IMG/VR virus record: IMGVR_UViG_3300024265_000005
Span: 1-55,461 of that record
DNA length: 55,461 nt
DNA from: a virus
Strand: one strand, 5' to 3'
This document shows, piece after piece, positions 1,129-39,658 of the stretch. How positions within the stretch are numbered: position 1 is the stretch's first letter; each line of letters opens with the position of its first letter. Made by a program: the position numbers and the translations under genes. The notes under the pieces are model-generated. The model was not told the DNA's origin. It did not search any database and was given only the letters and a program-made list of their open reading frames with translations.

Positions 1129-4100
1129 ATGTGGGAAATATTGTGGTGGATTATCGTATACGTTATTTTACCGGCTGCGTTGGCGTATCTTGGCGGCACG
1201 CTTATGGCGCCAGACGAGCCTGAAGGAGAGGAGCCAAGAAGAAGTGCGCAGAGTACAAGTTGGAACCCTAGATCAACTCAAAGTGAGGGAATACCTAGGC
1301 CAAGAGCTTATGGCAAGAATATGCACCACGGCAATATTGTGTCTAAGTGGACGGATGTCGATGACTCCTACAGCGAAATACTTTACATGGTTGTTGAACA
1401 TGGTGACGGACCTACCGCAGGTGTAGGTGCAAACATAGTCTACCTCAATGATCAACCGGCTTCAAATTTTGGGTCTGTAAACATACAAGAGCGTCTCGGT
1501 ACGATGGATCAGACCGTTATGACTGGGTTTGAGAAATCTAAATTACAGCACAACATTGGCACAGCGTTAGTATACGATGTGGCCCAAACATTTACGACGC
1601 CTAACGACTTCTTCGAAGATATAGAATACACCGTCAGTTTTCCTCAAGGGTTGTACAGACGACAAAAAGATGGAGACATCAAGAGTTCCCAAAATACCCT
1701 ACAAGTGCGTATCCGTGAAGTAGGTGGGAGTTGGTCTGACGTGTCCCCGGCCACATTTTGGTGGCAATCCGTTGACCCGCTGTACTATCTCTTCAAACTG
1801 TCCGATTATACAACGATCAACAAAGGCACTCAGTACGAACTAGAATTCAAGGTGACGTCACCTCAAGGTGAGAGGCATGTCAATAAGATGTCTTTGAGGA
1901 GCGTCCGCGAAGTTTTAGATGTCCCGTTCACTCGACCAGGGAAAGCTTTAGTTGGTATCAGAGCAGTTGCCACATCACAGCTAAGCGGCAACATTGACGT
2001 TAAAGTGGTTCGCCAGGACAGGATCATCAACGTATTTAACGGCGCTGTTTGGTCGCTAGAGTGTTCAAACAATAGAGCGTGGATCGTTTGGGATATACTT
2101 ACACTACCCTGCATCTCGGGAAACGGCGGAGGCACTCCATACGCTATCGAAAGATATGATGGGATGGACCCAGCGTATCTAGACTTAAACTTCTTCCACG
2201 CATGGTCGCTATTCTGTGAAGAAGAGATTCTTGACGGTTATGGTGGGACAGAAGCGAGAGCTGCTTGCAACATAATCGTAGATACTTTCACTGACACTTA
2301 TTCATTATCCCAGAGGATCGCAAGAGTTGGCAGGGCGAATATCTATTGGGCCGGTGATAAGTTGACAGGCTGGATTGACACTGTTGTTACCACACCAATA
2401 GATTTGGTTACTATGGACAACATGATGTTCAAGTCCTGGAAAAACAATTGGGCGATAGTTTCTGAATTGGCAGGCGTAATAGAAGTGCTGTACCAGGATT
2501 CGAGACAGGGATACGAGAAGACCTCCGCAGATTATTCGAGCGAAGACGCCGGTGGATACATGAATATAGTCAGCCTAGAAGGTATAGGTATGACTTCTCG
2601 TGGTCCAGTCATTCACTATGCTAAACATTTGGTTACTCGTAATGCGTTAATTCGAAACAAAAATGAATTCAGGGTGGCCAAAGATGGGTTTCGATATTCT
2701 TTAGGCAACGTGATCCGTCTTCAATCAAGACCTGCGAATTGGGGCCAAGCGTACATAGTTAAAAGTGCAACAGCAGATACAATCACTGTAGGCAGAGATG
2801 TGGCGGGAGATGTAATACCTGGTGATGTGTTGCACATTCGAACATACGATACAGGTACAGAGCAGGTTATTACTGATACGTATACCGTAGATTCAGTACT
2901 GGCTAGAGTTATAACTATAACCGTACCGTGGGATGTCGCACCTATTAAAGGAAATTTAGTCGCCACAGGGGCTGCAACAGATGTGAAGCTGAGGAGGATA
3001 ACCAAACTTCGACCTACAAAAGATAATTATTTCGATGTCACTGTCGAAACTTACGATCCAGATTTGTTCGACGCTGATGACATTGACCCGAATAACCCTA
3101 ATGTGAATTATATTTGGGCAGGAGCGAATCCAGATATAGGTGCTCTAGTTACTCACGCTGATCTGGACGATTTAGTAGCTCAAATAATCCCTGCACAACC
3201 GGACATCAACGTTCCGTGGCCGAGTAATTTAACTTGGACTGGTAGTTTGGGAACGACAGTAGCGTGGAGCAAAACAGACGCCGACTTCGACATTACATTT
3301 AGCTACGCAGGGACTTCCAACATTATCGCGGCTGACTCGACTACTGATTCTTATATCTATTGGGACCCAGCGAGTCCAACAGTGTTTCTCTCGACCAATT
3401 TGATTGGCACGGCACTTGCTCCAGATCACTGGTTGATGTGTATAAACATTGATGGTGTCGTTTCTCAACCTAACCCACAACAGGTTATTCACGCGGCAAT
3501 ATTGTTGGCAGGGACGATCAGGGCTGAGACGTATCTTGAGTTGAGAAACACATACGTCTACAACGGAGATGATAGTTTAGATACTGCGAATCCGTTTGAC
3601 GTACCGTTCAAGATCGTATCGGAAATGATAGCCGTGCGATCTGTCAAGCTTTCGTTTCAAATAAAGCCATATCAGGCTTATTCTACTGCTGCTGCATCAG
3701 GCGGAGGCCAAACTTCTGGCGGAGGTGGGACCGGTTGGTGGCAAACTGAAACAGAATTGGCGACTGCCATTGACGCAAATACAGATTCGTCAAGAGCTGA
3801 TATTTCTTCTTCTGCTCAAACTGATATGGAGGATTTGGACACTCACCGACACACTATGCCTCAACACGACCATAATTTGAGTGGCAGCACTAATTCAGAG
3901 GATGGCACTGGTTCGCACAGCCATGATCTCGGTTTTTCAGCAAATGTAAGTAACGAAGACCCAGGCGACACTGATTTGGAGGATTTAGGTAATCATCAAC
4001 ATGGTCTCCCTGCTGGAACAACAGCTTTTGATGGCCACATACATAGCCAGAATGAACCTATTGGCGGGCACAAACATGACATGCCTGCTCAAGACGACCA

Positions 4101-4359
4101 TGCACATAACGTTGCTAACCATGTTCACGGTATCACTTATGGCCTTTATGAAGAGGACAACGCGCCAGTGACGGTTCACTATCATATCGACAACGGTGGC
4201 GGGTACGGTGGGCCGTCCGGTAATTTCACAACCACTCAGACTGACATCGACATAACAGCATCGATCACTACAGTAGGTTGGAAGTCTATTAGGTTCGACA
4301 CAGATAAAAGATGCCGCATTGCAGCAATCATAGAATGCAAGCTAGACATTGACGCTTAA
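1129..4359 (+). CDS. gpJ-like tail tip / host-specificity protein with His-rich C-terminus
   Basis: This 1076-aa protein follows the gpL-like gene after 9 bp, with AAGGTG upstream of the ATG. A hydrophobic stretch at residues 3-22 precedes a long body whose middle resembles the central hub part of lambda gpJ and similar tip-attachment proteins. Residues ~750-880 look like beta-rich fibre domains. From about residue 905 to 1020 there are nine His-x-His motifs (HRH, HDH, HSH, HQH, HIH, HKH, HAH, HVH, HYH) spaced through Gly/Asp-rich sequence. In T4 gp37, HxH repeats bind metal in the fibre tip, so a metal-stabilised tip is a reasonable inference. Position and size support the tip assignment; the receptor is unknown. 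Confidence 0.8.
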   Translation: MWEILWWIIVYVILPAALAYLGGTLMAPDEPEGEEPRRSAQSTSWNPRSTQSEGIPRPRAYGKNMHHGNIVSKWTDVDDSYSEILYMVVEHGDGPTAGVGANIVYLNDQPASNFGSVNIQERLGTMDQTVMTGFEKSKLQHNIGTALVYDVAQTFTTPNDFFEDIEYTVSFPQGLYRRQKDGDIKSSQNTLQVRIREVGGSWSDVSPATFWWQSVDPLYYLFKLSDYTTINKGTQYELEFKVTSPQGERHVNKMSLRSVREVLDVPFTRPGKALVGIRAVATSQLSGNIDVKVVRQDRIINVFNGAVWSLECSNNRAWIVWDILTLPCISGNGGGTPYAIERYDGMDPAYLDLNFFHAWSLFCEEEILDGYGGTEARAACNIIVDTFTDTYSLSQRIARVGRANIYWAGDKLTGWIDTVVTTPIDLVTMDNMMFKSWKNNWAIVSELAGVIEVLYQDSRQGYEKTSADYSSEDAGGYMNIVSLEGIGMTSRGPVIHYAKHLVTRNALIRNKNEFRVAKDGFRYSLGNVIRLQSRPANWGQAYIVKSATADTITVGRDVAGDVIPGDVLHIRTYDTGTEQVITDTYTVDSVLARVITITVPWDVAPIKGNLVATGAATDVKLRRITKLRPTKDNYFDVTVETYDPDLFDADDIDPNNPNVNYIWAGANPDIGALVTHADLDDLVAQIIPAQPDINVPWPSNLTWTGSLGTTVAWSKTDADFDITFSYAGTSNIIAADSTTDSYIYWDPASPTVFLSTNLIGTALAPDHWLMCINIDGVVSQPNPQQVIHAAILLAGTIRAETYLELRNTYVYNGDDSLDTANPFDVPFKIVSEMIAVRSVKLSFQIKPYQAYSTAAASGGGQTSGGGGTGWWQTETELATAIDANTDSSRADISSSAQTDMEDLDTHRHTMPQHDHNLSGSTNSEDGTGSHSHDLGFSANVSNEDPGDTDLEDLGNHQHGLPAGTTAFDGHIHSQNEPIGGHKHDMPAQDDHAHNVANHVHGITYGLYEEDNAPVTVHYHIDNGGGYGGPSGNFTTTQTDIDITASITTVGWKSIRFDTDKRCRIAAIIECKLDIDA

Positions 4360-5640: not shown

Positions 5641-5838
5641 ATGTCAGCGTGTGAAAAATGTTGGGCTGATGCAGGTCGTCGAGCTCAAATTTCCGGTCGT
5701 TCTCAAACAGAATGTTATGCTGAATTCCTTGAAGAGCGCAAAAATAATCTTTGTTCAGAAAAAGAACAGAAAGGAGATCTAAATGAAAATTCAATACAAA
5801 AATCTAAAACTACAAAAGAAGACTTCGAAGTTGATTGA
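5641..5838 (+). CDS. Small Cys-containing hypothetical protein
   Basis: This 65-aa frame begins one base after the previous stop and overlaps the next gene by 56 bases. The N-terminus has CxxCWAD and further cysteines, resembling short phage zinc-binding proteins. The C-terminal part overlaps the Mini-A-like start, so the functional part may be only the first ~45 residues. Confidence 0.5.
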   Translation: MSACEKCWADAGRRAQISGRSQTECYAEFLEERKNNLCSEKEQKGDLNENSIQKSKTTKEDFEVD

Positions 5839-6652
5839 GCAAGCGAATGAAATTCTTGCTGAGTACGAAGATCAAGGTTTTATCCTCACTGTTCGTCAAG
5901 TCTATTATCAATTTGTCGCTAGAGGTTTAATTTCGAATTGTCTCAAATCATATGGGTATGTCGGTGCTGCTTTGAACAAAGGAAGATTGGCAGGCTTGAT
6001 CGACTGGTCATTGATCGAAGACAGAACAAGAAATCTTGCAGGCAATTCGCATTGGAATAGTCCTTCTGAAATTCTGATGTCTGCAGCATTTTCATATAAA
6101 CTTGATTCCAGAGAAGATCAAGAATATAAAATCGAAATTTGGATTGAAAAAGATGCTCTTGTTGGAATGATCGAACCAGTTTGTGTAGAACTTGATCTTG
6201 ATTATTTTGCTTGTCGAGGTTTTGTAAGCCTGAGTGAAATGTGGAGAGCAGCACAAAGATTGAAAAATGAAAATTGCATTATTCTTCATCTCGGCGATCA
6301 TGATCCTTCTGGCATAGATATGACCAGAGATATTCAAGACCGACTCGTGACTTTCGGCTGTGATAATCTTGAAGTCAAAAGAATTGCTTTGACTATGGAT
6401 CAGATTAAAGAATTCAACCCGCCACCGAATCCTGTCAAACTTTCAGATTCACGTGCTCGCGATTACATAATAGAATATGGCAGCGAATCATGGGAGCTTG
6501 ACGCACTTGCTCCAGACGTGCTGGAAAAATTGATCAGAAAGCATGTAGCTGATTTCACTGACGAAAGCAAAAGACAGAAATTATTGGATAGGCAGCAACA
6601 AGAAAAAGAACAGCTAGAGCATGTTGCTGAAAATTGGGAGGATTATCGCTAA
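5783..6652 (+). CDS. Spo11/TopoVI-A-like TOPRIM protein (Mini-A type)
   Basis: This 289-aa protein combines a winged-helix-like motif with the pattern T-x-R-Q-x-Y-Y (tyrosines 41 and 42) and a TOPRIM-type acidic set: Glu122 in WIEKDA, and Asp172/Asp174 in GDHDPSG. That order and spacing match the A subunit of type IIB topoisomerases and Spo11, where the tyrosine attacks DNA and the acidic residues bind Mg2+. No B subunit (GHKL ATPase) is found nearby. This fits the stand-alone Mini-A proteins described in mobile elements, whose activity is poorly known. The start has AAAGGAG 6 bases upstream. Roles in DNA cleavage, replication or recombination are inference; the catalytic residues are present. 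Confidence 0.7.
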   Translation: MKIQYKNLKLQKKTSKLIEQANEILAEYEDQGFILTVRQVYYQFVARGLISNCLKSYGYVGAALNKGRLAGLIDWSLIEDRTRNLAGNSHWNSPSEILMSAAFSYKLDSREDQEYKIEIWIEKDALVGMIEPVCVELDLDYFACRGFVSLSEMWRAAQRLKNENCIILHLGDHDPSGIDMTRDIQDRLVTFGCDNLEVKRIALTMDQIKEFNPPPNPVKLSDSRARDYIIEYGSESWELDALAPDVLEKLIRKHVADFTDESKRQKLLDRQQQEKEQLEHVAENWEDYR

Positions 6653-7011
6653 TGAAAAGGATTGGAATAATTGGATCACGAAAAAGAAATAGTGGCAATG
6701 ATTATCAAAAAATCAAAAATACTTTTATGCGTGTAGCAAATGCAGATGACATTATTGTAAGTGGAGGTTGTCAAGAAGGAGGTGATCATTTTGCTGAAAT
6801 AATAGCAGCACAATTCAGTATACCAACAGAAATTTTCAGACCTGAATGGAAAAAGTACGGTCGCAGTGCAGGCTTTATTCGGAATACTGACATTGCAAAA
6901 ACAAGCGATATACTGATTGCGTGCGTTGCTGTCAATCGAAAAGGTGGTACTGAAGACACAATAAAAAAATTCAAGAAGTTTCATCCTGAAGGCAGGTTGA
7001 TTTTATGCTAG
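6652..7011 (+). CDS. SLOG-superfamily protein, YspA-like (DUF2493)
   Basis: The ATG overlaps the previous TAA, with GGGAGGA upstream; I prefer it to an in-frame start at 6634. The 119-aa protein reads as a YspA/DUF2493 Rossmann fold: GSRxR near the start, SGGxxxGGDxxAE in the middle, PxWxKYGRSAGxxRN, and GGTxxTIxxF at the end. SLOG proteins bind or process nucleotide-derived ligands. The ligand here is unknown. It is common in phages beside nucleotide genes. Confidence 0.75.
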   Translation: MKRIGIIGSRKRNSGNDYQKIKNTFMRVANADDIIVSGGCQEGGDHFAEIIAAQFSIPTEIFRPEWKKYGRSAGFIRNTDIAKTSDILIACVAVNRKGGTEDTIKKFKKFHPEGRLILC

Positions 7012-7323: not shown

Positions 7324-7509
7324 ATGAAGAATCAAATCATAACTATTGAAAAGACGTCTAAAATATATAAAGGCGCTACAGCCATTGGCGTCTGCATGAT
7401 TATCGGCGGTATCATGACAATGGCTTCATCAATTGGAGAAGTCCTTGTGATGCTTGGCGTCATACTTTGTATTTACAGTTCGATTGGTGCGTGGTGGAAT
7501 AACGGTTAA
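7324..7509 (+). CDS. Small two-segment membrane protein
   Basis: This 61-aa protein has two hydrophobic stretches, residues ~18-35 and ~40-57, joined by a short turn and preceded by a charged N-terminus. AAAGGAG lies upstream. The hairpin topology would suit a small holin-like or envelope protein, but no family is evident. The hammerhead ribozyme begins 19 bases downstream. Confidence 0.65.
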   Translation: MKNQIITIEKTSKIYKGATAIGVCMIIGGIMTMASSIGEVLVMLGVILCIYSSIGAWWNNG

Positions 7510-7527: not shown

Positions 7528-7584
7528 AGTCGAAACGCGATACGGAGATCGTGTCCACAAGTAGAAGCTTGTGCTGATGAGACT
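7528..7584 (+). ncRNA. Type II hammerhead ribozyme
   Basis: All core elements are present in order. Stem II 3' strand AGUC is 7528-7531. GAA is 7532-7534, with A15.1 at 7535 paired to U7554. Stem III is 7536-7541/7548-7553 (six pairs, one G.U, 6-nt loop). The cleavage nucleotide is C7555 (context GUC). Stem I is CACAAG/CUUGUG, 7556-7561/7568-7573, with a 6-nt loop. CUGAUGA is 7574-7580, and stem II 5' strand GACU is 7581-7584. The open helix is stem II, hence type II. Predicted cleavage is between 7555 and 7556, in the untranslated gap between the membrane-protein gene and the lipoprotein gene. Hammerheads are known in phages and metagenomes; activity here is inferred from sequence. Confidence 0.88.
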
Positions 7585-7595
7585 CAGTAAGTCTT
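7579..7595 (+). promoter_or_regulatory. Hairpin competing with hammerhead stem II
   Basis: GAGACU (7579-7584) can pair with AGUCUU (7590-7595) around a CAGUA loop, using the same GACU strand that forms ribozyme stem II. The identical hairpin (closing pair G.U changed to G-C) occurs at 8037-8053. It could switch the ribozyme or control access to the GGAG ribosome site at 7609-7612. Confidence 0.5.
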
Positions 7596-7620
7596 ACGAA
7601 TACTTATAGGAGATAAAAGG

Positions 7621-8007
7621 ATGACTACTCAAGAAAACAGATGGGCGTTTATCGCTATTGTGTGTGTTTTGATCTGTTTTATGACTCTATGTAGCGGCTG
7701 TGAGCCAATGACAACAAGACAGAAGTGGATGTTCGGTAGCATGTGTATGGCGCAGTGGGCTGACTACGAGAGTACTAGAAAAGGTCACCTGGAAAGAGAT
7801 GATGGTCCTTGGAAAGAGGCCAGTCCCTTCCTTGACGATCATCCCAGCCGGGATCAGGTGTTCCTGCTGAAACTTGGAGCAGTCGCGTTCTTCTGGGGTC
7901 TCGGTGAATTGGACCCGGACCACCGGGAACTCTACTATACTGTCGGGATCGTAAGCGGTGGAGTTAACGCGATACGTAATGATCACATATATGAAGATCG
8001 GTTTTGA
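7621..8007 (+). CDS. Predicted lipoprotein of unknown function
   Basis: This 128-aa protein has a signal peptide with hydrophobic residues ~9-26 and lipobox LCSGC (Cys ~27), so the mature part should be lipid-anchored outside the inner membrane. A second hydrophobic stretch lies around residues 80-95. AGGAGAT is 9 bases before the ATG. The leader carries the hammerhead ribozyme. The stop codon lies two bases before a related RNA leader. With the barrel gene downstream it looks like a two-gene envelope cassette, for example surface change or superinfection exclusion (inference). Confidence 0.65.
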   Translation: MTTQENRWAFIAIVCVLICFMTLCSGCEPMTTRQKWMFGSMCMAQWADYESTRKGHLERDDGPWKEASPFLDDHPSRDQVFLLKLGAVAFFWGLGELDPDHRELYYTVGIVSGGVNAIRNDHIYEDRF

Positions 8008-8009
8008 AA

Positions 8010-8053
8010 AGTCCGTTGCTACGAGGCGGCGCTGATGAGACTCAGTAAGTCTC
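8010..8053 (+). ncRNA. Hammerhead-derived leader lacking the GAAA/stem III half
   Basis: AGUC (8010-8013) is followed directly by a six-pair arm, 8014-8019/8026-8031 (two G.U pairs, 6-nt loop), then CUGAUGA (8032-8038) and GACU (8039-8042). This is the hammerhead at 7528 without its GAAA, stem III and UC. The arm has a different sequence but the same pairing and loop length, while the 22 bases from 8031 are identical to those from 7573. Without GAAA it should not self-cleave by the standard mechanism. The GAGACU/AGUCUC hairpin (8037-8042/8048-8053) is an alternative fold before the ribosome site. Confidence 0.6.
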
Positions 8054-8076
8054 GCAAATGATTCATAGGAGATAGA

Positions 8077-8781
8077 ATGATGAAAAGAATGATAGCAACA
8101 ATTTGTTTAGTACTGGCACAGAGTGCAGTCGGTCTGACACCGATTGGAAATCCGACAGTAAAACCAAACGACGGATGGCAAGCAGCTTTCAATTATGTGC
8201 ATTCTTCGCAAGACGTGGAACTGTCTGGCTACGGATTGACCGGAACAGGAGACATCACGGTTAATGATTTCCTAGGAGAAATTGGTGCAAACGTAACGGA
8301 AGATTGGTATTTGGCATTTCTTATAGGGCTTGGAAAAGCGGATATCGATGATGTTGAATTCAACGGCGTAAAGATTGGTGCTCGTGCAAAGCACACGTTC
8401 ATTCGTCAAGAAAAAGTTGATTGGTCTTCTTCGTTCAACATATTTCTTTCCAATTTCGCCGAGGACGTATCTTTGCCTGATATTCATCGAAAGGTTCAAG
8501 TCGATGTCACTTATATGGAGATGACTGTTGCAATTGGTCCGACCTTCCACATAACGGAGGATGTAGATTTATACGGCGGACTTGGACTTCATTATTTGAC
8601 TGGAGAAATGGATGTCAACGTTCCAGGGCCGAATCTATCTTTCAACATAGAAAAGGATTTCAATTTAGGAGGCTTCATCGGATTATCTGTCGCAGCGACT
8701 AAGCATATCAGCCTTGACATCGAGGCTCAAATGTTCGAAGATGCGAAGGCAATAGCATTCCGATTTAGCTATCGTTTCTGA
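8077..8781 (+). CDS. Predicted outer-membrane beta-barrel protein
   Basis: This 234-aa protein has an N-terminal signal (basic MMKRM start, hydrophobic core, cleavage likely after ~20 residues). It then has alternating amphipathic strands with many aromatic ends and terminates in RFSYRF. A C-terminal Phe is the usual barrel-assembly signal of outer-membrane proteins. Size fits a small 8- to 10-strand barrel of the OmpA/OmpW/Lom sort. TAGGAG precedes the ATG. Phage-borne barrels such as lambda Lom alter the host surface or block superinfection; which applies here is unknown. It is the last gene before the terminator. Confidence 0.7.
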   Translation: MMKRMIATICLVLAQSAVGLTPIGNPTVKPNDGWQAAFNYVHSSQDVELSGYGLTGTGDITVNDFLGEIGANVTEDWYLAFLIGLGKADIDDVEFNGVKIGARAKHTFIRQEKVDWSSSFNIFLSNFAEDVSLPDIHRKVQVDVTYMEMTVAIGPTFHITEDVDLYGGLGLHYLTGEMDVNVPGPNLSFNIEKDFNLGGFIGLSVAATKHISLDIEAQMFEDAKAIAFRFSYRF

Positions 8782-37912: not shown

Positions 37913-38159
37913 AAAGTCATTCAAAATTTGGATAAATCGAGAAGACACAATTTCTCTTGAAGAAGCTCTGCGAATTGCAAAGCGAGAACTCTGTGATATG
38001 GTTTACGATCCATTAGGGATTGACGGATCTGATTCATGGTGGTGGTGTGTTGCTGTACTTGAAGTACTGCAACAAGAAGATTGGATTCGTGAATTCAATA
38101 TTCTGAAAGAAGCTCCAAAGGATCAGCAGATTGAAGCGAAAGCTGGAGTTGTTTATTGA
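37902..38159 (+). CDS. Small acidic hypothetical protein
   Basis: 85 aa from a GTG overlapping the MuF gene end; weak ribosome site. Trp-rich centre (DSWWWCVAVLEVLQQEDW). It might be an immunity-type or chaperone partner for the metallopeptidase domain next door; that is a guess from position. Confidence 0.5.
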   Translation: MQFEKSFKIWINREDTISLEEALRIAKRELCDMVYDPLGIDGSDSWWWCVAVLEVLQQEDWIREFNILKEAPKDQQIEAKAGVVY

Positions 38160-39658
38160 TGTTCGAAAAGATCAACAACAAGATTGAATCAGTTGAACCG
38201 CCTGAAAAAGTTGTGGTTTTGCAAGAGTATGAAGCTGAGGTAATGACCCAGAAGCAGGCGATGAAGATCAGCATGGAATTGCGTGAAACTTATGCGAAGA
38301 AGTTGGCTACAAGAAATTATGGTGAGATGGAAAACGCTGTCCTTTCTTATGACTCAGCACGCACTTTGGCTTTAGTTGATAAGCAAATAGTCGGAGCTAT
38401 TTCTTTTCAGTGGGATGAAGTATCTAAAGTTGTTTTTATCAGCCATGTTGGAACGTTGAAGGCTCCCAAAGGCACTGGTGCTGAATTAGTTCGTACAGCA
38501 GTTGAAACTGCTTATAAGGGTAAATGGGGCATGGCTCTGGAATCAACTTATGAAGCTATACCCTTTTGGAAACGGCTTGGATTTGTGCCAGATAAAAAAG
38601 TGCCTTATGTATTTGGTGCTGACTTTAAAAGAGTAACCCAAATAAGAGAAGCTCTTGGTGCTAAAAAAAAATTGAATAGAGACGATAACATGTTCGACAA
38701 ACAAAAACTGCGTATAGAGAATTTAGACCAAGAACAGTTGAATAAAGCTTCTGACAGAGAACTGGCAGTATTCAGACTAAGGTTCGGACAACTTTGGAAT
38801 AAACATTTCCAGAAGTGCGATGACATTATCGTCGGAAGTCTCAATCGTTACGATCTCATTACCAAGTATCGAATGCTTCTGAAAATGATGCGTAAGCGAG
38901 ATCTGGAACACAGCACTGAAGCTATAGACCGAGAAGCTTTCAAGAGAGCAATGCAAATCAAAAAGGCTGGTCTTGATATCGCTCAATTAGAACCAGTTGT
39001 TCTTTGTGCGAATGCTGTCTTTATCAAGGAGGATTTTCTTCAGGATGAAGATGATGAAATAGAAGTTATCATAAAATCAGATATTGAAGAACCAAACGAA
39101 GCCTTAGAAGAAGCGATCACTGAGATGCTTGGTGGACAGCTTGATAGGGCTTGCGTTTTTATTTATACAAAAGATTTTAGCGGCAGTTGTATTCCATTGT
39201 TTCATGATGTCTTAAGTCCGGTTCTTGAAATAGAGAAAATAGAAATGCAAGAAAGGACAGATTTTTCGGAACTTGGTGAACAGAAGTTCGAAAGAAATGT
39301 TCCTATTGTTCCTCTTCTCAAAGGTAAAGTTGAGGAACGCATTGTCTACGGTATTGTGTATGAACCGGATACGGAAGACAGTCAGGGCGACGAAGCGAAT
39401 GCTGAAGAAATCCGTAAAGCTGCATATCAGTTTATGGAAGAGTGTCAGACCTTCAAAGTGATGCACAAAGGTAAGAATGTCAAGGTGCGAATACTGGAGA
39501 ATTATATTGCTCCTGTAGACTTTACGATCGAAGGAAAGTCGGTCAAGAAAGGCTCATGGGTACTCGTTACCAGAATTCTTGACAACAAAATTTGGAAAGC
39601 AATCAAGAAGGGAAAGCTCACAGGGTACTCGATGGCAGGTTATGCAAGAACAGCGTAA
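38159..39658 (+). CDS. GNAT-like domain fused to XkdF-like prohead protease
   Basis: 499 aa from the ATG overlapping the previous stop. Residues ~35-155 look like a GNAT acetyltransferase: KQIVGAISFQW, GTLKAPKGTGAELVRTAV (acetyl-CoA loop) and YEAIPFWKRLGF. A helical middle follows, and residues ~385-499 match the XkdF-like serine protease family (YGIVYEPDTEDSQGD ... AAYQFMEE ... GSWVLVTRI ... GYSMAGYA). XkdF-type proteins cleave scaffold and capsid. The next gene is scaffold-like. The GNAT fusion is unusual. Confidence 0.72.
   Translation: MFEKINNKIESVEPPEKVVVLQEYEAEVMTQKQAMKISMELRETYAKKLATRNYGEMENAVLSYDSARTLALVDKQIVGAISFQWDEVSKVVFISHVGTLKAPKGTGAELVRTAVETAYKGKWGMALESTYEAIPFWKRLGFVPDKKVPYVFGADFKRVTQIREALGAKKKLNRDDNMFDKQKLRIENLDQEQLNKASDRELAVFRLRFGQLWNKHFQKCDDIIVGSLNRYDLITKYRMLLKMMRKRDLEHSTEAIDREAFKRAMQIKKAGLDIAQLEPVVLCANAVFIKEDFLQDEDDEIEVIIKSDIEEPNEALEEAITEMLGGQLDRACVFIYTKDFSGSCIPLFHDVLSPVLEIEKIEMQERTDFSELGEQKFERNVPIVPLLKGKVEERIVYGIVYEPDTEDSQGDEANAEEIRKAAYQFMEECQTFKVMHKGKNVKVRILENYIAPVDFTIEGKSVKKGSWVLVTRILDNKIWKAIKKGKLTGYSMAGYARTA

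Follow-up and report, generated by a model that had tools for sequence, protein, structure and literature searches.

Does the leader between two small genes of this phage encode a self-cleaving ribozyme, and what would become of the message, and of the leader itself, once it had been cut? The window, by which we mean the whole stretch of DNA that was analysed (55,461 nucleotides), is a single record among the IMG/VR viruses, that of a tailed phage whose likely genes lie on the + strand; besides those listed below they include helicase, DNA polymerase, primase, terminase, portal and head genes. An earlier note on this DNA had placed a complete type II hammerhead between a small membrane-protein gene and a lipoprotein gene, and the open reading frames on either side (61 and 128 amino acids) agree with that placement.

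1129-4359, + strand: J-like tail fibre gene
5783-6652, + strand: topoisomerase gene
7324-7509, + strand: upstream gene, 61-amino-acid hydrophobic (membrane-like) protein (open reading frame)
7608-7612, + strand: Shine-Dalgarno-like AGGAG of the gene at 7621 (direct reading)
7621-8007, + strand: downstream gene, 128-amino-acid lipoprotein-like protein (open reading frame)
8077-8781, + strand: gene, located after the half copy described below, for a 234-amino-acid outer-membrane beta-barrel protein (PF13505, E 5.7e-8)

The N-terminus of the 128-amino-acid protein is a hydrophobic stretch ending in LCSGC that resembles a lipoprotein signal, which makes the label plausible, but the protein has no family match; a search of IMG/VR found no relatives of it, and for the beta-barrel protein none were found in IMG/VR or in phage records. 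Elsewhere in the window, a 125-amino-acid open reading frame (6634-7011) matches a YspA/cpYpsA-related SLOG domain (PF10686, E 6.2e-7), and one of 500 amino acids (38156-39658) matches head maturation protease families in its C-terminal quarter and nothing in its N-terminal part.

Direct reading of the letters gives a complete type II (GSC-order) hammerhead at 7528-7584 on the + strand, composed of the following parts, where R1 is a covariance model introduced below.

7528-7531, + strand: stem II 5' strand AGUC (direct reading, descriptor scan, model R1)
7532-7535, + strand: core G12 A13 A14 and A15.1, GAAA (direct reading, model R1)
7536-7553, + strand: stem III hairpin CGCGAU-ACGGAG-AUCGUG (direct reading, comparison with L251 and L252)
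7554-7555, + strand: U16.1 and C17, with predicted cleavage after C7555 (direct reading, model R1)
7556-7573, + strand: stem I hairpin CACAAGU-AGAA-GCUUGUG (direct reading, descriptor scan, covariation)
7574-7580, + strand: core CUGAUGA (direct reading, model R1)
7581-7584, + strand: stem II 3' strand GACU (direct reading, model R1)

The arms of stem III are CGCGAU (7536-7541) and AUCGUG (7548-7553), with a single G.U pair at 7537-7552; those of stem I are CACAAG (7556-7561) and CUUGUG (7568-7573), and U7562.G7567 lengthens this stem to 7 bp with an AGAA loop. Both the 15.1-16.1 pair (A7535-U7554) and the G10.1-C11.1 pair (G7581-C7531) are present, the cleavage triplet (GUC, 7553-7555) fits NUH, and this copy holds CUGANGA, GAAA and an NUH triplet together. 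Stems I and III are closed by loops and stem II is open, in GSC order, and the R1 alignment finds every core base and 17 of 17 model pairs intact. The letters are exactly as the earlier note had described them base by base (arms, GAAA, UC, CUGAUGA, one G.U), and its assignment to type II is borne out by the open stem II, the full core and the R1 match. The predicted cut at 7555^7556 agrees with the hammerhead layout, and cleavage between C7555 and C7556 is what established hammerhead chemistry leads one to expect. Pseudoknots between loop I and the 3' tail occur in the majority of published type II hammerheads and are not obligatory; by eye, no 4-bp pairing is visible here between loop I and 7585-7600.

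When both strands were scanned with descriptors of all three circular permutations (types I, II and III), the window yielded no hammerhead besides the 7528 copy. Type II matches with 18 paired bases arose twice in 4800 window-sized first-order Markov genomes, and the descriptor match alone is strong, yet not beyond chance in a large survey. A search with Rfam covariance models had been proposed in the earlier note, which held that the lack of a covariance-model hit, together with a lack of self-cleavage in vitro, would speak against the ribozyme. At gathering score, Rfam returned no match of any family across the whole window, and a threshold relaxed to E 10 brought up no hammerhead in the 161-base neighbourhood; with the query cut to 65 bases, the Hammerhead_II model (RF02276) reached 21.2 bits (E 0.0096), short of its gathering score of 37 bits, which is a database threshold and no defining trait of the ribozyme. 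The independent covariance model R1, built from 44 short-loop phage type II hammerheads with the window excluded, matched the 55-kb window at 51.9 bits and an E-value of 8.5e-15 (R1 E-values are rough), its sole match at E <= 10. The lack of a hit thus applies to the Rfam gathering score only, and similar hammerheads elsewhere are missed as well. Of the 13 phage loci tried that have type II matches, 12 belong to the short-loop class, and the Rfam gathering cut-off is passed only by the pseudoknot-class locus L134, so that the RF02276 cut-off does not delimit the type II class; Rfam 15 at gathering score reports zero short-loop type II hammerheads in the 12 loci that hold them (from L057-L130). 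The silence of Rfam on the window therefore reflects the limit of a model cut-off and is not counter-evidence.

An exact 20-mer of the repeat had no match in IMG/VR, a DNA similarity search of phage records returned no match, and a pattern search of cellular genomes found no window-like hammerhead. A narrower pattern with CTGANGAGACTCAG led, within IMG/VR, to two distant phages, L251 (IMGVR_UViG_3300031566_000036) and L252 (IMGVR_UViG_3300004481_000037), whose proteins are only 21-36% identical to the matching proteins of the window. Within the stretches read, R1 matches rows of six or seven hammerheads in L251 and five in L252, nearly all of which precede an AGGAGA-type ribosome-binding site and none of which Rfam reports. 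These leaders resemble that of the window in a near-identical core, CUGAUGAGACUCAG and the AGGAGATAG binding site, and L251a shares its ACGGAR stem III loop, the stems of the two differing by compensatory changes; unlike the window, the rows place seven and five copies within one operon. Across the twelve copies, 12 of the 17 pairs have changed on both sides, 95.9% of the cells are paired (67% in shuffles), and covariation stands at 0.685 compared with 0.155 in shuffles and 0.05-0.11 (maximum 0.113) in slid controls, an effect whose size leaves little doubt even with an alignment that was fitted to the model. The compensatory arm changes for which the earlier note had suggested searching related phages are thus present. 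Reading 7528-7584 as a genuine type II hammerhead is well supported by all sequence criteria, and the ribozyme very probably cuts the phage mRNA just ahead of the lipoprotein-like gene.

Phage type II hammerheads have been known since 2011, when several copies were described around prophage genes with a function then unknown (PMC3088659; later reviews PMC6155905, PMC7761336), and the window copy belongs to this known kind. Bacterial type II hammerheads cleave in vitro, those of the Agrobacterium tumefaciens triple arrangement cleave also when cloned and transcribed in E. coli, and pseudoknots are found in about 40% of all hammerheads (PMC3088659). The window copy shares with the type II hammerheads (RF02276; PMC3088659) the GSC order, invariant core, closed stems I and III, open stem II and location between phage genes, and differs in its 7-bp stem I with a 4-base loop, the lack of an evident loop I pseudoknot, its score of 21.2 bits only and a downstream competing hairpin. 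The non-circularly permuted type, SGC, has the same core blocks in a different order (PMC10085705). A pattern scan of IMG/VR without a pairing rule yielded >120 stretches; in the collected loci, 169 distinct type II matches, among them the window copy, pass a pairing filter, and 117 of the 169 precede a Shine-Dalgarno site and an open reading frame of at least 30 codons, with a median of 28 nt from core to start codon. On each of three single phage contigs (L100, L149, L173), consecutive gene leaders bear type II hammerheads, five to eight per contig. The short-loop class (44 in R1) is like the window in its mostly U.G-closed 7-bp stem I, 4-bp stem II and short leader before the Shine-Dalgarno site, whereas its loop I is mostly of 3 bases (AGAA in the window) and most members are without the competing hairpin.

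Behind the lipoprotein-like gene, the window holds part of a second copy.

8011-8054, + strand: half copy (copy 2), 3' product half only (direct reading, folding, locus survey)

It consists of GUC (8011-8013), a stem I hairpin (8014-8031), CUGAUGA (8032-8038) and a competing hairpin (8036-8054), followed by the binding site of the beta-barrel gene. Its 7-bp stem I, CGUUGCU-ACGA-GGCGGCG, is unlike that of the 7528 copy in sequence and has the same build (U-ACGA-G). Reading, descriptor scan and locus survey found neither a GAAA block nor a stem III, and without these the half copy would not be expected to cleave. No GAAA block fits on either side, for which reason a type III or any other complete hammerhead was rejected here, and the missing block also distinguishes the half copy from the SGC permutation (PMC10085705). 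It is the one half copy against 245 full hammerheads in 2.67 Mb of loci, mostly chosen for hammerheads. A possible 5'-half relic, AACGCGATACG, lies inside the lipoprotein gene ~40 bases upstream of copy 2; equally good matches occur in 7 of 2000 shuffles and 5 of 986 genome stretches, and the relic is suggestive, and only that, of the decay of a former full copy. The persisting half-copy hairpins fit a function as product leader, and recent decay explains them equally.

In the complete copy, the bases directly downstream can form a structure that excludes the active fold.

7578-7596, + strand: competing hairpin UGAGACU-CAGUA-AGUCUUA (folding; conservation is partial in L251, L252 and window copy 2)

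Here N7, G8, A9 and the stem II 3' strand (7578-7584) pair with 7590-7596. The leader's minimum-energy structure contains this hairpin; the active fold, when imposed on the 102-nt leader, lies 5.8 kcal/mol higher, which, with a stem II of 4 bp, makes misfolding possible. The core is finished before 7590-7596 is transcribed, so cleavage can come first. Minimum-energy folding of the predicted 3' product yields the pair of hairpins for each of the window copies as well as for L251a and L251b. The 3' arm of the competing hairpin carries two differences in copy 2 (UUA to UCG) with pairing kept, reads AGUUUCA in L251a and L251b and is paired again there, and in L252c N7 is C and its partner G; among the L252 members two need a bulge, two are without the 10.4 pair, and L252a favours another core-trapping fold. 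This conservation, drawn from seven sequences, lends modest support to refolding, and the folds suggest that after cleavage the downstream hairpin may trap N7-G8-A9 and stem II.

As a general type II feature, a core-trapping hairpin was rejected (median p 0.6 and 0.75 in two loop classes), and over all type II matches the own tails pair no better with the core than shuffled tails do. A subset has a trap of another form. In a sample not chosen for it, UCAG occurs at a fixed distance after stem II far above the expected 1 in 256, and a dedicated scan for such hammerheads returned 77 stretches. N7 and N', the base that precedes UCAG, were compared across 65 distinct stem I sequences: they are T-A in 53, C-G in 9, C-A in 2 and T-G in 1, a covariation with a Fisher p of 1.7e-8 that ignores relatedness. 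Because N7 and N' covary, the used core could close into CUGAN(G)...N'UCAG in this subset (L063, L070, L086, L087, L127, L139, L177-L246).

The full consensus, the covariation, the leader position and the homologues together make it very likely that 7528-7584 is an intercistronic-leader type II hammerhead of a tailed phage that cuts between C7555 and C7556 and splits the message; cleavage, refolding and purpose are what we infer from them. Once the polymerase had passed 7584, GAAA and CUGAUGA would become enclosed by stems III, I and II as the nascent mRNA folded, and the RNA would cut itself between C7555 and C7556. The upstream message would then carry the stem III hairpin followed by a terminal 2',3'-cyclic phosphate, and the lipoprotein message would begin with a 5'-OH at 7556, directly at the stem I hairpin. 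When 7590-7596 had been made, 7578-7584 might pair there instead of with 7528-7531, which would free the upstream piece, block re-ligation and leave a two-hairpin leader before the ribosome-binding site. The likely purpose would be to split the polycistronic message and so set mRNA ends and stability gene by gene.

Several other readings of the locus were weighed. An ordinary two-hairpin leader that happens to fit the hammerhead core would account for the silence of Rfam at gathering score, for the roughly 2 matches with 18 paired bases per 4800 random genomes and for a half copy in which hairpin and CUGAUGA stand without the remainder; set against the R1 match and covarying homologues that occupy comparable positions in two other phages, such a coincidence is the least probable of the readings considered. 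The half copy also raises the thought that its neighbour is a decaying hammerhead that no longer functions, since copy 2 has lost its 5' half and there is one full copy here against seven in L251 and five in L252, but decay is very unlikely given that the core and all model pairs of the 7528 copy are intact. Regulation would give the competing hairpin a different role, as an off-state held by a ligand, a protein or translation, with cleavage switching expression of the lipoprotein gene; the hairpin does exclude the active fold, is energetically favoured in the full leader, and is retained by the two leaders of the window and, in part, by those of L251 and L252. Against this, the polymerase reaches the 3' arm (7590-7596) only after the core has been completed, which gives the ribozyme the first chance; no aptamer-like element was noticed, and Rfam finds no riboswitch in the window at gathering score, which leaves this reading unlikely, though not negligible.

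Cleavage might instead free a ribosome-binding site masked by complementary bases 5' of the ribozyme. Such a complement does precede the first hammerhead of the L251 row (~2420-2500, minus strand; AATCTCCTA/TAGGAGATT) and of the L252 row (930-1040; TCTCCTA/TAGGAGA), whereas the window offers only 5 bp (CCTTT/AAAGG), beside the Shine-Dalgarno site. As a general role this was rejected: over 182 type II matches there is no enrichment, complementarity being 10.76 compared with 10.93 with swapped partners, and for the window such release is highly improbable. For the type II hammerhead that would split the message, a broader proposal can be made, tentatively and at less than even probability: that it belongs to a class of 'cut and refold' leaders, in which downstream bases have been selected to trap the spent core, making the cut irreversible and leaving a two-hairpin 5' end. 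The 3' product would itself be functional, hence the retention of half of copy 2, and the trap would come in two versions, N7 to 10.4 (window, L251, L252) or C3 to N7/G8 with a covarying N'UCAG. The competing downstream hairpin, the lone half copy and the N7-covarying N'UCAG are new here; the novelty lies in the refolding idea, which is a proposal.

The locus adds a well-supported predicted site of phage mRNA self-cleavage that lies below Rfam's curated threshold, and the Rfam model largely misses a short-loop class that is common among phage type II hammerheads. The core-trapping covarying hairpins and the lone half copy lead to a testable idea, that the refolded leader of the 3' product may be part of the function of these ribozymes.
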